Shown in pieces: positions 1,376-7,449 of a DNA stretch of 36,584 nucleotides; the stretch's first letter is position 1; each line of letters opens with the position of its first letter. Made by a program: the position numbers and the translations under genes. The DNA is from a virus, in the IMG/VR virus record IMGVR_UViG_3300010430_000246, positions 1 through 36,584 of that record. The stretch is one strand, 5' to 3'. Below the pieces are notes generated by a model, which did not search any database, was not told where the DNA came from, and worked only from the letters and a program-made list of their open reading frames with translations.

Positions 1376-1416
1376 TGTATTAGTCCTATTAAGTGGGGGC
1401 CGTGGCCCCCGTTGGT

Positions 1417-2241
1417 TTACTTTCTGGCGTTCAATTGCTCTAGTGTTAACTTTTTGATGTATTTTACTGCGCTTGCCATACTGCCTAAATGGCGGTCGGC
1501 GTTCATATCAACATAGCCAAAACTTATATCGTAGTCTTTAAACTCTGCCGCCATGCCTGAACCGTAGCCTCTCCCAGTTATACTGCCGCCACGGCCTTTC
1601 ATGTTCTCGGCGGTGCGCCAGCACAATCGACGTTGGAACGAAGCATGGCATAGGGCGAACGCAACGCTGGCTGGTGACCAGTGGTCGGTGCCGTGTTTGA
1701 TACAGGTCTCTACACTGGCGGCCCCTTGTTGGTCGCTATTGCGCCAAATGGCGTGAAGTTCAATAGAGTATCCTTCAAGTGATAACTGGTCTAATACAGC
1801 CATTATCGCGCTACCACGGTTTAATATATGCTCTTGTACGCAACTGGCATATCGGCCTACGTGAACCGCTACCCGTAGCAATTTATCACCGGCGTCGGTT
1901 TCTACAATGTCGAGCATATCGTCTGGCATGCCTGAAAGGTAGTTTGGAACGTTAGGCGCGAAACCTTGTATTCCGCTATCAATATAAGGAGTCGGCAACG
2001 TATCACCCGAAAGTGTTTCATGTGGAACGTTTACACGTGGCATTGCATCGGCCCCTTGTTGCCAGTTGCCGCCAGCAAGGCCGCACTCAATTGCATCGTC
2101 AATAGTCCAATCGCCATAAAAAGACGGGTCATAGTTATCGGTAGACTCGTGGCCCTTGTATTTGCGCGGGGCGTCTTTAATTTGTTTAACGTGGTCGGCT
2201 AATTCGCCCACACTGTCAAACTTGATTGTTTCATAGTCCAT
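1417..2241 (-). CDS. MoxR-partner protein, 274 aa, possibly VWA-like
   Basis: ATG at 2241, GGGAG 9 nt upstream, only 4 nt after the end of the AAA+ ATPase gene, so the two are cotranscribed and probably act together. Residues about 1-115 are polar. Residues about 118-185 (LRVAVHVGR, then RGSAIMAVLDQLSLEGYSIE) alternate strand and helix as in a von Willebrand factor A fold. A clear DxSxS metal site is absent. MoxR-type ATPases are commonly paired with VWA proteins, and N4-like phages carry such a pair, so I infer that this is the adaptor or substrate-binding partner. The assignment rests on position and general fold, not on a diagnostic motif. Confidence 0.6.
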   Translation of the reverse strand: MDYETIKFDSVGELADHVKQIKDAPRKYKGHESTDNYDPSFYGDWTIDDAIECGLAGGNWQQGADAMPRVNVPHETLSGDTLPTPYIDSGIQGFAPNVPNYLSGMPDDMLDIVETDAGDKLLRVAVHVGRYASCVQEHILNRGSAIMAVLDQLSLEGYSIELHAIWRNSDQQGAASVETCIKHGTDHWSPASVAFALCHASFQRRLCWRTAENMKGRGGSITGRGYGSGMAAEFKDYDISFGYVDMNADRHLGSMASAVKYIKKLTLEQLNARK

Positions 2242-2245
2242 TGTC

Positions 2246-3388
2246 TTATACTCCCAATTGGCGGCGTTGGTCGGCGGATAGGCTAGCCCCGAAAGTTTCA
2301 GATATTGCCATTTCAGTTGTATCTCCCATACCTAATACGCTGGCGCCGTTTATGCTCGAACGTGGTGATATTATCACGTCGATTTTAGCCGTCAGGGCGG
2401 CGGCTCTGCATCCTTGAACCGTGTTAACCCATTCCTCACAAACAGCGGTGTCGGTGCCGCCACATGCCGCAAATTCAGCAAGAGCAAGGCGGCGTTCCAT
2501 CTTTTCATCATAGGCTAGTTCAATTCGGTTGAACCGGTCTAAAAACGCTCCATCCAGACTGTTTCTTTTGTAGTTAACAGTTGCTCCTAATCCGTTCGTG
2601 TTCGCGGCGGCTATTACGCGAAAATCATCATGCGCCTTTACCACTTCATTGGGGAAAGTCATTTCCAAATTTTCAATTGCCATGTTGAAAGCAATTACAG
2701 CTTGTGGGTTACTGGCATCTACCTCGTCAAACAAGTACAGGCCGCCGAATTTAAACGCCTCAAAAAATGTTGAAGAGATATAGTCGCCGTTAGCCGTGGT
2801 ATATCCGGTCAATTCATATTTCTGTAATAGCGCGCCGGTATGATAGAAGTCTATCGAAAGTGCGGCGGCGGCCTGTTTGGCTATCGTCGTTTTGCCTGAA
2901 CCGGCGGGGCCGAAAAGATATACTTTTTTACGGGCGGCTAGTCGTTTTACTATTCTGGCTAGTTCTTTATGCGCGCCTTTAATCTTAACCGTGGGGGCGT
3001 TTACACGTGTAACCTGTACCGTGGTTATTGGGTTCGAGTATTTCTGGATTAATTCCTTCAATTGCACTTCATCAAAGGCGGGGGCCGAGGGCGTTAGAGT
3101 GGCGATAAGGGCGGCTAGTGCCTTGTCGGTATCACTAGGGGCGGCGGGGGCCACTGGCACGGCGTCAATCTCATCAAATAGCATAGGGCCGTTGCTAGTA
3201 TCAATAAGCACGGGCGGGATTGTTTGCGTGGTCGGCGTGGCGGCCTGTACAGGGGCGGCCCCTAGCTGGAAGCCGTTGTTAATCGCCAGTTGCATCATGT
3301 CGGCATCATTCAGGCCGGTCTTATCAATAACGGCGGCGGATAGGTGGCGGCGTGCGTTTCGTAGGTCTAATTTGCTGTAATTGCTCAT
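2246..3388 (-). CDS. MoxR/CbbQ-type AAA+ ATPase, 380 aa
   Basis: Residues 1-130 are a variable Ala/Pro-rich region; the AAA+ core follows. Walker A is GPAGSGKT at residues 160-167, Walker B is LYLFDEVD at about 217-224, sensor 1 is AANTNG at 261-266, and LDRF at 283-286 is the arginine-finger region. The YTTANGDYISS stretch after the first helices is typical of the MoxR/GvpN/CbbQ branch. These ATPases form hexamers that remodel or load metal or cofactor into partner proteins, usually together with a VWA protein. Here the partner candidate is the gene 4 nt downstream and a SprT-like protease lies immediately upstream. The substrate is unknown. A GTTTACAC copy lies at 2999-3006. Confidence 0.88.
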   Translation of the reverse strand: MSNYSKLDLRNARRHLSAAVIDKTGLNDADMMQLAINNGFQLGAAPVQAATPTTQTIPPVLIDTSNGPMLFDEIDAVPVAPAAPSDTDKALAALIATLTPSAPAFDEVQLKELIQKYSNPITTVQVTRVNAPTVKIKGAHKELARIVKRLAARKKVYLFGPAGSGKTTIAKQAAAALSIDFYHTGALLQKYELTGYTTANGDYISSTFFEAFKFGGLYLFDEVDASNPQAVIAFNMAIENLEMTFPNEVVKAHDDFRVIAAANTNGLGATVNYKRNSLDGAFLDRFNRIELAYDEKMERRLALAEFAACGGTDTAVCEEWVNTVQGCRAAALTAKIDVIISPRSSINGASVLGMGDTTEMAISETFGASLSADQRRQLGV

Positions 3389-3439
3389 AATATTTATTCT
3401 CTATGGTTGGTTGTTTGGGGGCCGTGGCCCCCGTTGGGG

Positions 3440-4063
3440 TTAATCGTTAACGTTCAAAGTGCCGGTGGCGCATGAAAGGCACTCGGCACGGGTAATACTG
3501 TCAATAATTTTGCGGCTGGCCCTGAATTTGAAGTCGCAGGAATCGCATTCAACCAATAGCTGGCGGTTTTTTTGTTTAGGCGCGCCGTTCAGATCTATAT
3601 CCATTTTGGCGTGCGGGATAGGGCCGAGGTAATCAATAATGGCTTGTAACTCTATTTCGAGTTCAGGCGTTGCGACTGTACAAGTGAATGACTCCTTACT
3701 ACGACCGTTTGACCCGCCTTTCAATCCAACTAATCTACAAAGTTTTTGGAAGGCGGCACCGTGACCTGACTCGTTATTGTCAAAGGCATGCATCTGTTCA
3801 TGTAGTAACACGTCGAGAATTCGCAACGAGTCGTCTAAATTAGAGGAGATAAAAATTTCGTTTGTCTGGTCTGAACTGGCGGCGCGATTCCAACAAGTGC
3901 CTAATACAACCCCTTTCTTATTTTTGGTAGTCGGGGCCGTTAGTGAGTACCGAATGGCTGGCGTAGGTATATCAATAACTGGCGTGATAATTTCATCAAT
4001 CATTATATTTGCGGCGGATTGCAACCAATGTTCGCGAGTGGTGATAGTCGGTGATGTAGTCAT
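3440..4063 (-). CDS. SprT-like zinc metalloprotease, 207 aa
   Basis: I place the start at the ATG at 4063, which has GAGG 6 nt upstream; the frame is open to an ATG at 4126, but those 21 extra codons are made of a 21-22 bp DNA repeat and look non-coding. HEQMH at residues 88-92 is the HExxH zinc site, with a third ligand probably His101 in SGHGAAF, as in the SprT/Spartan family. The C-terminus carries a zinc ribbon with Cys173/Cys176 and Cys195/Cys198. SprT/Spartan proteins cleave proteins crosslinked to or bound on DNA; a phage version may clear DNA-protein blocks or degrade host factors. It is the first gene after the control region, consistent with early expression. Family well supported; target unknown. 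Confidence 0.82.
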   Translation of the reverse strand: MTTSPTITTREHWLQSAANIMIDEIITPVIDIPTPAIRYSLTAPTTKNKKGVVLGTCWNRAASSDQTNEIFISSNLDDSLRILDVLLHEQMHAFDNNESGHGAAFQKLCRLVGLKGGSNGRSKESFTCTVATPELEIELQAIIDYLGPIPHAKMDIDLNGAPKQKNRQLLVECDSCDFKFRASRKIIDSITRAECLSCATGTLNVND

Positions 4064-4071
4064 ATAAACCT

Positions 4072-4120
4072 CGAAAAGTTGTAAGTTAAGGCCCGAAAAG
4101 TGTAAGTAAAGGCCCGAAAA
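4072..4120. repeat. Short direct repeats in the leader of the SprT-like gene
   Basis: CGAAAAGTTGTAAGTTAAGG at 4072 and CGAAAAGTGTAAGTAAAGG at 4094 are consecutive, nearly identical units of 22 and 21 bp, followed by a third partial unit (CGAAAA) at 4115. A further copy, CGAAAAAGTGTAAGTAAG, lies at 4406-4423. They sit in the untranslated leader between the promoter candidate and the start at 4063, so they could be operators or part of the origin. Confidence 0.7.
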
Positions 4121-4159
4121 TGCCATTTTTGGCGCGCCGTTTGTAAGCGGCTTAGGGGC

Positions 4160-4190
4160 ATTATATATAAGGTGTCAAGCCTTGTATATA
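4160..4190 (-). promoter_or_regulatory. Candidate leftward promoter with overlapping inverted repeat
   Basis: On the minus strand a perfect -10 TATAAT (4160-4165) is 17 nt from a -35-like TATACA (4183-4188), which would start transcription near 4153, about 90 nt before the SprT-like gene. The same bases form an imperfect inverted repeat, ATATACAAGG ... CCTTATATAT (4163-4190), a shape expected of a repressor operator lying over the promoter. The -35 match is only 4 of 6. Confidence 0.5.
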
Positions 4191-4320
4191 CGTTACAGCT
4201 AATAATCGTATAGATAGTGGCGATTAATCGAATACAAGGCGGCGGCGGCAGTTTGTAAGTTATTTGTAAGTAACGAATGTAAGTGATACCCCGTATAGCT
4301 TTAACCCCTTTTACTTACTT

Positions 4321-4382
4321 ACTTACAAAATATATAACTCTTAAGATATAAAAAAGGGTAAAAAAAAGGGGGGTTATATAAT
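4321..4382. other. AT-rich core, candidate DNA-unwinding element
   Basis: A stretch made almost only of A and T with short G runs (TATATAACTCTTAAGATATA, then A5 and A8 runs), bounded by TGTAAGT repeats. It ends in a perfect TATAAT at 4377-4382 on the plus strand, but no fair -35 lies 17 nt upstream, so a rightward promoter here is weak. Easy melting next to iterons suggests an origin. Confidence 0.4.
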
Positions 4383-4668
4383 GCCCTATATAGGCGGGAG
4401 CCTCTCGAAAAAGTGTAAGTAAGTATGTGATGTAAGTGGGAACCGTTGCCGACGCCATTTGATACCGGAAAAAGGCGAATTTCGCGACCACGCCACGATC
4501 GCCCCTGTACCGGTGTAATGGGATAGCTTATATATAAATAGCCTAGCGGCCTATATACGGCATTCTAAGCGCTGGCACTATCCGACCCCACTTAATCCGG
4601 CACCGCTGGCACCACCGACCGCACCACCGACACGGCGTAGGTTATCGACCACGCCATGTAATCTATAA

Positions 4669-4682
4669 CACGTGTACACGTG
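4669..4682. repeat. 14-bp perfect palindrome CACGTGTACACGTG
   Basis: A perfect 14-bp palindrome containing the GTGTACAC core. A 12-bp version, ACGTGTACACGT, is at 4790-4801 and another at 1167-1178. Symmetric sites like this suit a dimeric DNA-binding protein. It is the first of four GTKTACAC-type sites within about 205 bp of the control region. Confidence 0.7.
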
Positions 4683-4716
4683 ACGACATGCCGACCGGCA
4701 CCACCACCACCACGCC

Positions 4717-4911
4717 AGTTAATGGGGCCAGACTAACCACGTTTACACCATGCCGACCACCACGCCAGTTAATAGGGCCAGACTAGCCAACGTGTACACG
4801 TGACAACATTAGTAGGGGCAGAGTGTATACATTAGTAGGGGCAGAGTGTATACATATATGGGGGCAGAGTGTAAACGGGGTCAAAGCTAGCAGTTTAATA
4901 GGGACAGAGCG
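4717..4911. repeat. Tandem array of about six degenerate 23-33 bp units
   Basis: Units start at 4717, 4767, 4807, 4831, 4854 and 4892. The shared core is TTARTAGGGGCAGAG or a close variant, and the first five units end in GTTTACAC, GTGTACAC, GTGTATAC, GTGTATAC and GTGTAAAC respectively; the sixth has lost this end. The first two also share a preceding segment (CATGCCGACC, CCACGCCAGTTAAT). Spacing of the middle units is 23-24 bp, about two helical turns, which suits cooperative binding on one DNA face. The genome-wide 8-mer is thus an integral part of an ordered array. Confidence 0.75.
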
Positions 4912-5030
4912 AAGGCACCCCGCCCCCAATTTAAAACCGAACCCTAAGTACCCATACCTAACCACTCACAAAAATTCGCCCAAAAAGTTTTTCATATACA
5001 AAACCCACTACAATATGTAATACTCACGCC

Positions 5031-5907: not shown

Positions 5908-7449
5908 GTGGCCCATTTACACCATACAGACCCAGCATATAACACCAGCTACCATGACGAAGACCCGTTTACACGGTTCGGCATAGTCCCAGCCCCTTTT
6001 GACCTAAAAGACCCCCTGAGCCAGTACGGCAGCTACGACAATACCGCTGACTTTCAAAAAACTTTCGGCAACTCAGCCAATAAAGACGAGGACGGCGGGT
6101 GGAACTTACCCTACAAGCCGCGTCAACAGATGCTCACGTTCCATCAGCGGGAGAAAAGGTTCGCCTTCTTGATCTGCCACCGCCGGTTCGGCAAAACAGT
6201 GGCCTGTATTGCTGAACTAATCCTGAGAGCCTTGTATACCACCAAGAAAAACGCCCAGTACGCCTATATTTGCCCATTCAGAACTCAGGCAAAGGCCGTG
6301 GCGTGGAATTACTTAGTGGAAATGACCCAAGGCATTGCTACTGACGTAAAAGTCTCAGAACTCAGCATCACACTGCCAAATGGGGCCAAAATATGGCTCT
6401 CAGGCTCAGATAATGTCAATGCCTTGCGTGGACTGTACCTAGATGGCGCGGTCATTGACGAGTTTGCTCAGTGTAGACCTGACTTGCTGGAGGCGGTCAT
6501 TATGCCTTGTCTAGTCGATCGGAAAGGATGGCTGGTCATCATCGGGACGGCCTATGGCCGCCTTAATCAGTTTTTTGACTACTACGAGAAGTCTCAAAAG
6601 GACGACGAGTGGTTCCATGCCGACATAGAAGTCTATGACTCGGGCGTAATTGACCCAGAAGAAATCCTGCGTATTAAAAACGCCGTCAGTGAGGCTAAGT
6701 TTAGGCAAGAGTTCCTAAATGACTTCTCAGCCGAGCTTGTTGGCACGTATTATGCTTCGATAATCAACGAGATTGAACAAAATGGCCAGATCAACAAAAC
6801 GACCCATTGGAACCCCCACTTACAGGTACATGTGGCCTTTGATATTGGTCGCGGTGATAATACCGTGGCTTGGTTTTGGCAGGAACATGAACACGGTATC
6901 GACGTTATTGATTTCTATATCAACAATGGCGAACAGGCGCAGCATTATATCGACATGCTCAAGGAGAAGCCCTACGACTACAAATCAATCAATCTACCCC
7001 ACGATGCCAAAGCAAAGACCTTTGCCACGCATAAATCGGCAATGGAGCAGTTTATTGATGCTACGTTCGGGCCAGACACTCAGATAAAGATTGTGCCTAA
7101 GCTCTCTGTCGAGGATGGCATAGAAGCGGCACGGCAAATCTTAAAATACTGTAATTTTGACTACGATCGCTGTTACTACGGCGTAGAATGTCTACGTGTC
7201 TACCGCAAGAAGTGGGACGAGCTGAAACAGTGCTTTATGAAGACGCCATTACACGATTATGCCTCGGACGCCAGTGATTCATTCAGGTACATGGCGATAC
7301 AAGCTAACAAGAAATATTTGCCCGCACCGACTGTACATGAGAGTATTAACAAAGCGCTAGCCTCTGGCGGCGAGTACAAACTAGAAAATTTATTCAGTGA
7401 AAGAGAAGCGGCCAATAGTCGCAATTCATTTAGAGCTAAAAGGATATAA
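5908..7449 (+). CDS. terL: Terminase large subunit, 513 aa
   Basis: GTG start immediately after the previous stop. The ATPase half shows a Walker A of the terminase type, LICHRRFGKT, at residues 88-97, and Walker B with catalytic glutamate, GAVIDEF, at 180-186, followed by the coupling motif IIGTAYG at about 211-217. The nuclease half is an RNase H-like fold: first acidic residue Asp312 in VAFDIGRGDNT, and the C-terminal acidic cluster HDYASDASDSFRY at 449-461. The protein pumps DNA into proheads and cuts the genome. Length is normal for the family. GTTTACAC at 5967-5974 is the last copy before a gap of about 3.8 kb. Confidence 0.95.
   Translation: MAHLHHTDPAYNTSYHDEDPFTRFGIVPAPFDLKDPLSQYGSYDNTADFQKTFGNSANKDEDGGWNLPYKPRQQMLTFHQREKRFAFLICHRRFGKTVACIAELILRALYTTKKNAQYAYICPFRTQAKAVAWNYLVEMTQGIATDVKVSELSITLPNGAKIWLSGSDNVNALRGLYLDGAVIDEFAQCRPDLLEAVIMPCLVDRKGWLVIIGTAYGRLNQFFDYYEKSQKDDEWFHADIEVYDSGVIDPEEILRIKNAVSEAKFRQEFLNDFSAELVGTYYASIINEIEQNGQINKTTHWNPHLQVHVAFDIGRGDNTVAWFWQEHEHGIDVIDFYINNGEQAQHYIDMLKEKPYDYKSINLPHDAKAKTFATHKSAMEQFIDATFGPDTQIKIVPKLSVEDGIEAARQILKYCNFDYDRCYYGVECLRVYRKKWDELKQCFMKTPLHDYASDASDSFRYMAIQANKKYLPAPTVHESINKALASGGEYKLENLFSEREAANSRNSFRAKRI

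Follow-up and report, generated by a model that had tools for sequence, protein, structure and literature searches.

A SprT-like protease gene adjoins a MoxR ATPase–DUF7192 gene pair in uncultured tailed phages and probably forms a functional module with it

In NorQ-NorD, RavA-ViaA and CbbQ-CbbO, a MoxR-class AAA+ ATPase is encoded beside a VWA-fold partner. In NorQD the finger of the VWA partner goes into the pore of the ring, and the partner is twisted and stretched as ATP is turned over (PMC13036017). Combinations of this type are also found in viruses. Jumbo phages possess a MoxR ATPase together with a VWA protein that has a metallopeptidase fused to its N-terminus (Iyer et al. 2021, PMC7824862), the pairs of archaeal tailed viruses and others were named CobST (PMC8651126), and a 'CobS' is known from an N4-like Alteromonas phage (Schitoviridae; PMC11705849). 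SprT-like proteases have been annotated in actinophages and jumbo phages, and the jumbo-phage review mentions SprT and MoxR-VWA separately (PMC7824862). In the open-access papers searched we found no report that joins SprT with a MoxR-VWA pair in phages or that names DUF7192. Human cells use SprT-type proteases (SPRTN) to clear proteins stuck on DNA. Pre-treatment with p97, or with TEX264 and p97, raised the processing of TOP1 adducts by SPRTN (PMC7062751).

The DNA studied here (the window) is one whole virus record of 36,584 bases (IMGVR_UViG_3300010430_000246). The terminase shares 35-40% identity, across most of its length, with terminases from Pelagibacter phages and other small phages. 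The structural genes run rightward (terminase at 5908-7449, then portal, major head protein, tail and fibre genes), and the replication genes for exonuclease, nucleotidyltransferase, DNA polymerase and primase run leftward at 28-36.5 kb. Three further genes, all on the minus strand, lead leftward from an intergenic region at about 4.1-5.0 kb. They encode a 207-aa SprT-like zinc metalloprotease with a zincin domain (HExxH..GH) and a C-terminal 4-Cys zinc ribbon (3440..4063), a 380-aa ATPase with intact Walker A and B motifs, sensor 1 and arginine residues (2246..3388) and, downstream of the ATPase gene across a gap of 4 nt, a 274-aa DUF7192 protein with a predicted VWA fold and a degenerate MIDAS (1417..2241). 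The three genes thus share the strand of the DNA polymerase, primase and exonuclease genes, which is opposite to that of the structural genes. They are real: the earlier note on this DNA had described a MoxR-type ATPase gene 4 nt from its partner, a zinc-ribbon SprT gene upstream, and all three pointing the same way from a control region, and coordinates, motifs and profiles agree with this.

As in the jumbo phages, a MoxR ATPase, a VWA co-chaperone and a metallopeptidase are encoded together in a phage. The addition of a metallopeptidase to MoxR-VWA is hence not without precedent, since jumbo phages already carry one fused to the VWA protein (PMC7824862). However, the protease of the window is separate and SPRTN-like, has a zinc ribbon and usually has its gene upstream of that of the ATPase; the VWA protein, unlike that of the jumbo phages, is a member of DUF7192. 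With the NorQ-NorD group the window shares a MoxR-class ATPase beside a VWA-fold partner, and the NorD VWA domain is the top structural match of this partner; yet the pair lacks the NorD N-terminal domain, its MIDAS is degenerate, a protease is present in the triads, and unlike that group it has no known metal-insertion client. The p97-TEX264-SPRTN system likewise combines an AAA+ motor, an adaptor and a protease of the SprT family, and pre-treatment with the motor aids proteolysis. But p97, with its two rings, comes from another AAA+ clade, and TEX264 does not belong to the VWA proteins, so that the likeness is one of logic and not of homology of the whole systems. The CobST pairs of archaeal tailed viruses and cyanophages (PMC8651126) also contain a related ATPase and a VWA-fold partner; in contrast to these, the partner in the window is short and not CobT, and the cobalamin role of phage CobST is itself a proposal. 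MoxR-VWA pairs in phages are already published (PMC7824862, PMC8651126, PMC11705849), and the earlier note had named N4-like phages as carriers; SprT beside a MoxR-DUF7192 pair is a combination that was not found in the open-access papers searched.

By its sequence, the protein encoded at 2246-3388 is a MoxR-class AAA+ ATPase. It matches AAA_5 in Pfam above the cut-off (E 1.4e-11) as well as phrog_249 (E 5e-53). Walker A (GPAGSGKT), Walker B (YLFDE), the sensor-1 residue N263, R285 and R343 are all invariant in divergent relatives, and the VWA-fold partner that marks the class is encoded alongside. With phmmer, the nearest solved relatives by sequence were Midasin and CobS. The resemblance to CobS, and the annotations 'CobS' or 'porphyrin biosynthesis' given to published phage proteins, would suit a pair that acts as a viral CobST and works with the CobN of the host to raise cobalamin synthesis, a role that has been suggested for an Alteromonas phage and for tailed viruses of archaea. 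We regard this as highly improbable for the window. The ATPase scores 31.1 bits against the CobS equivalog (TIGR01650), whose cut-off is 558.55; the MIDAS of the partner is degenerate; no CobT family was detected in the partner, for which Pfam returned DUF7192 alone and NCBIfam nothing; and the protease would be left without a role.

The partner matches Pfam DUF7192 (PF23822) with E 1.9e-24 and 86.9 bits against a gathering cut-off of 27, and phrog_1909 with E 4.6e-24; both families are annotated as 'unknown function'. A single-sequence search with the partner yielded no viral relative, and among the sequences of solved structures the DUF7192 profile gave one chance-level match. Since this profile search was uninformative, the fold was taken from structure comparison. 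AlphaFold2, run on a 60-sequence alignment, predicted the structure with pLDDT 89.5 and pTM 0.86. The best solved matches in Foldseek were the NorD VWA domains in NorQD complexes (E 6.8e-5 and 1.5e-4). A second aligner, VIA, placed NorD first (Z 8.1 and 7.9), followed by Rea1-MIDAS (Z 6.7 over 148 residues at 3.7 A) and further VWA domains (Z about 4 to 5), where a Z below 8 in this library may mean merely a common arrangement. In the viral library of Foldseek, CobT and VWFA phage proteins ranked after the DUF7192 members. Because the top match is itself the partner of a MoxR ATPase and the viral library gives CobT and VWFA phage proteins, the predicted VWA fold is well supported, and the possible VWA-like nature of the 274-aa protein which the earlier note had suggested is borne out at the level of the model.

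VWA adaptors usually bind their targets through the MIDAS motif. The partner in the window has no intact MIDAS (DxSxS-T-D), and HVGRY stands at the position of DxSxS; the MIDAS Asp is retained in 13 of 60 DUF7192 relatives and R204 of the partner in 59 of 60. Several of the most conserved positions of DUF7192 lie in the segment ahead of the first VWA strand. This segment is a candidate equivalent of the finger with which NorD enters the pore, i.e. residues 403-448, which lie close to the beginning of the solved VWA fragment (PMC13036017). HExxH is absent from the 274-aa partner, the peptidase being a separate gene.

The protease sequence contains HEQMH(x8)GH and two CxxC motifs, and HExxH and GH are nearly invariant in 57 SprT relatives. 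Position 4063 was preferred to 4126 as the start because a GAGG ribosome-binding site lies ahead of it and the starts of the relatives are nearby. The protein matches phrog_6361 (E 3e-31); with Pfam PF10263 it reaches 21.7 bits, under the cut-off of 25.6. The AlphaFold2 model has a pLDDT of 93.8. Foldseek gave no match for it at E 0.001, the two best hits in VIA were human SPRTN (6mdx/6mdw; Z 8.2, 97-102 residues, 22-23% identity), and a search of solved structures with the SprT profile gave weak SPRTN matches (E 0.2). The SPRTN fold match and the catalytic motif together argue, with moderate strength, that the protein encoded at 3440-4063 is a zincin of the SprT type. Among the short Foldseek matches were MCM proteins, for which the output does not contain the aligned range; we read them as matches to the zinc-binding region, consistent with the zinc ribbon. 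By analogy with SPRTN alone, this ribbon may bind DNA.

The intergenic region at 4064..5030, which separates the leftward module from the terminase genes running rightward, looks like a control region, as judged from its sequence. It contains 23-nt tandem repeats and palindromes of the CGTGTACACGTG type. Four copies of the 23-nt repeat, ACATTAGTAGGGGCAGAGTGTAT, lie at 4806-4914 and appear iteron-like. The CGTGTACACGTG-type palindromes have 12 matches in the window where 0.17 would be expected (1168, 2028, 2998, 4669-4682, 4789-4802, 31105, 32631, 35823). They cluster in the control region, are also present within the ATPase and VWA genes, and are possible operator sites. A perfect 22-nt hairpin, tgggggccgtggcccccgttgg, lies between the SprT and ATPase genes (3416..3437) and recurs with the same sequence just 3' of the DUF7192 gene (1394..1415), so that the ATPase-VWA pair is bracketed by two identical hairpins. 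The core of this hairpin has these two sites in the window, against 0.27 matches expected, and no other copies there.

To what extent the three genes belong together can be seen from their neighbourhoods in other genomes. A first scan of viral contigs, made with an alignment of ATPases from five phages, gave 80 loci. The DUF7192 gene was near the ATPase gene in 79 of them, mostly directly adjoining and in some with the order reversed; SprT was directly upstream of the ATPase in 9. A second scan used an alignment that came partly from triads, and its 60 new loci are therefore biased to triads; the partner was present in 58 and SprT in 32, where it lay upstream of the ATPase in 31 and directly after the VWA gene in one (L285). 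Both viral scans together thus found the ATPase-DUF7192 pair in 137 of 140 loci. In bacterial genome contigs the partner was beside or close to the ATPase in 74 of 80 loci, with a clear SprT triad in one (L179). A strong SprT match was present in 41 viral loci, where it was directly upstream of the ATPase and on the same strand in 40 and directly downstream of the VWA gene in L285.

Whole records were then searched with no limit on the flanks. The 100 pair-bearing records, in two sets of 50 that overlap by at most two records (L017 and L036, added to the second), contained 27 strong SprT matches, and all 27 lay at the pair, almost always in the order SprT-ATPase-VWA; two of these cases (L297, L303) were judged by coordinates, the ATPase being cut by the locus end. 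Since the loci average 15.7 predicted genes, random placement would hardly give such exclusive adjacency. Weak, short SprT-like ORFs of about 155 aa, not linked to the pair, were seen in the records of L015, L016 and L268. Most viral records are contigs and possibly fragments, and homology was detected with models built in this analysis, so that divergent SprTs may have been missed.

Because 71 of the 80 pairs in the less biased first scan are without SprT, the protease is not an obligatory member. The earlier note had taken the three genes as one module; co-occurrence in other phages proved strong and specific, which supports this, and the many pairs without SprT limit it. Conversely, DUF7192 was found in 3 of 50 SprT records, each time with the pair beside SprT. 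As pairs without SprT and SprT phages without the pair are both common, each part can work alone. No replacement HExxH protease was found beside the SprT-less pairs; the HExxH matches near them look like chance and fall in unrelated ORFs. In triads across at least three groups, no other gene family recurred nearby, apart from those of the terminase/portal type, overlapping ORFs and a primase-like gene. We found no cultured phage with all three genes, and among the records listed the host genera of ATPase and SprT do not overlap. In the Sinorhizobium phage phiM5 (L007), a small ORF annotated within the ATPase gene (1349-1546) is noted as detected in the proteome of the phage particle.

Long contigs of bacterial chromosomes, from Streptomyces, Amycolatopsis, Actinomadura and others, also contain ATPase-DUF7192 pairs (L201, L207, L217, L231, L240 and similar). 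These pairs are possibly not of prophage origin, because ordinary host genes lie nearby where this was checked (in L217 an aldo/keto reductase and an M1 peptidase). The chromosomal pair of Halpernia frigidisoli (L187) has as neighbours a type I restriction gene and a YgjP-like metallopeptidase, which is distantly SprT-like. The neighbours of the chromosomal pairs in Halpernia, Amycolatopsis and Streptomyces showed no common function.

The adjacency could also have a simple historical cause. SprT might act alone, for example on DNA-protein crosslinks or as a protease for host proteins, and have nothing in common with an unrelated pair beyond an early promoter and an inherited slot. That 47 of the 50 SprT records have no DUF7192, and that the pair without SprT is common too, would agree with this, as would the slot beside the terminase, which is common to triads. 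In many of them, relatives of the window among them, the module is divergent beside terminase or portal genes, and a second large triad group has another packaging set in common. Since triad phages largely share one slot beside the terminase, inherited synteny may account for part of the adjacency. In most triad phages, no similarity of a terminase to that of the window is detectable; some do have a window-like terminase or portal. At least 8 changes of the SprT label are required on the ATPase tree, compared with 12.3 for shuffled labels; starred branches force two, and the 8 may include losses. On the SprT tree, in which the row L005 is the window itself and is labelled as lone, triad members occur in several clusters, and starred branches force at least three changes.

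Two cases go beyond synteny. One is L285, in which the order is permuted and SprT directly follows the VWA gene. The other is L133/L134, a sister lineage whose terminase is 45-46% identical to that of the window. Here (L133 5944-8801; L134; also L321 1-1086) SprT is present, and the place of the DUF7192 pair is taken by a CbbQ_C-type ATPase together with a CobT-like protein. In L133/L134 the CobT-like protein has HESLH, an acidic repeat and a VWA domain with a DVSSS MIDAS. Its gene is split across contig ends, as the contigs break inside the repeat; the shared repeat suggests that it is continuous. These two cases, and the finding that every strong SprT match in pair-bearing records adjoins the pair, speak against a SprT that acts alone, which we consider rather unlikely. 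Recurrent specific adjacency, repeated changes on the ATPase tree, the order in L285 and the swapped pair support the view that SprT, the ATPase and DUF7192 are one functional module, and we think that they probably are.

What this module does is less certain. A role in virion assembly or maturation, with the MoxR-VWA pair as chaperone of a structural complex and the protease processing structural proteins, has been proposed in similar form for the MoxR and peptidase-VWA pair of jumbo phages (PMC7824862) and also for the Acidianus two-tailed virus, and in many triad phages the module adjoins the terminase and portal genes. However, both in the window and in relatives the transcription of the module leads away from the structural genes and has the direction of the replication genes. 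In Staphylococcus phage G15 and phiM5, genes for nucleotide metabolism and recombination surround the pair. We hold a virion role to be unlikely. Because the strand is that of the replication genes and opposite to that of the structural genes, an early, DNA-related role is favoured.

A possible interpretation is that the module remodels and then degrades a target early in infection. In this mechanism the three genes would be expressed early, as their strand and position suggest. The MoxR-class ATPase would assemble as an AAA+ hexamer, and DUF7192 would be a VWA-fold adaptor that docks on the ring in the way NorD docks on NorQ. The target held by the adaptor would be pulled or twisted through ATP turnover. 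SprT with its zinc ribbon would then cut what the ring remodels, probably a target bound to nucleic acid, so that it would be destroyed and not merely re-shaped; DNA as the binding partner is suggested by SPRTN alone. This reading, the most economical one, joins the mechanisms of NorQD and of p97-TEX264-SPRTN. The earlier note had likewise proposed a complex that first remodels and then degrades a target on DNA, for which host chromatin or a defence complex would be candidates. The degenerate MIDAS of the adaptor, the absence of SprT from 71 of 80 pairs and the shared terminase slot count against it, and we put it forward as tentative. As a special case, the module could dismantle and degrade a host defence complex, e.g. 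a nucleic-acid-bound nuclease or helicase. The location with the replication genes and the patchy distribution would fit such a role; yet no particular defence is indicated, the PADLOC matches being weak P-loop similarities, and we regard this variant as quite improbable.

DUF7192 (phrog_1909), an unnamed family, adjoins nearly every sampled phage ATPase of the group labelled 'porphyrin biosynthesis' (phrog_249). DUF7192 as a VWA-fold adaptor would correct this misleading metabolic label and predict a role in protein remodelling. The recurrent SprT neighbour predicts a remodel-and-degrade system of phages in which the substrates of SprT would depend on the ATPase. Many uncultured tailed phages might thus possess an undescribed machine of MoxR ring, DUF7192 VWA adaptor and SPRTN-like protease, which extracts and destroys DNA-bound proteins early in infection and is an independently reached counterpart of p97, adaptor and SPRTN; taken as a whole, this is speculative and somewhat unlikely. 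If the target is indeed DNA-bound, the module would be a parallel to the way in which human cells clear proteins trapped on DNA.
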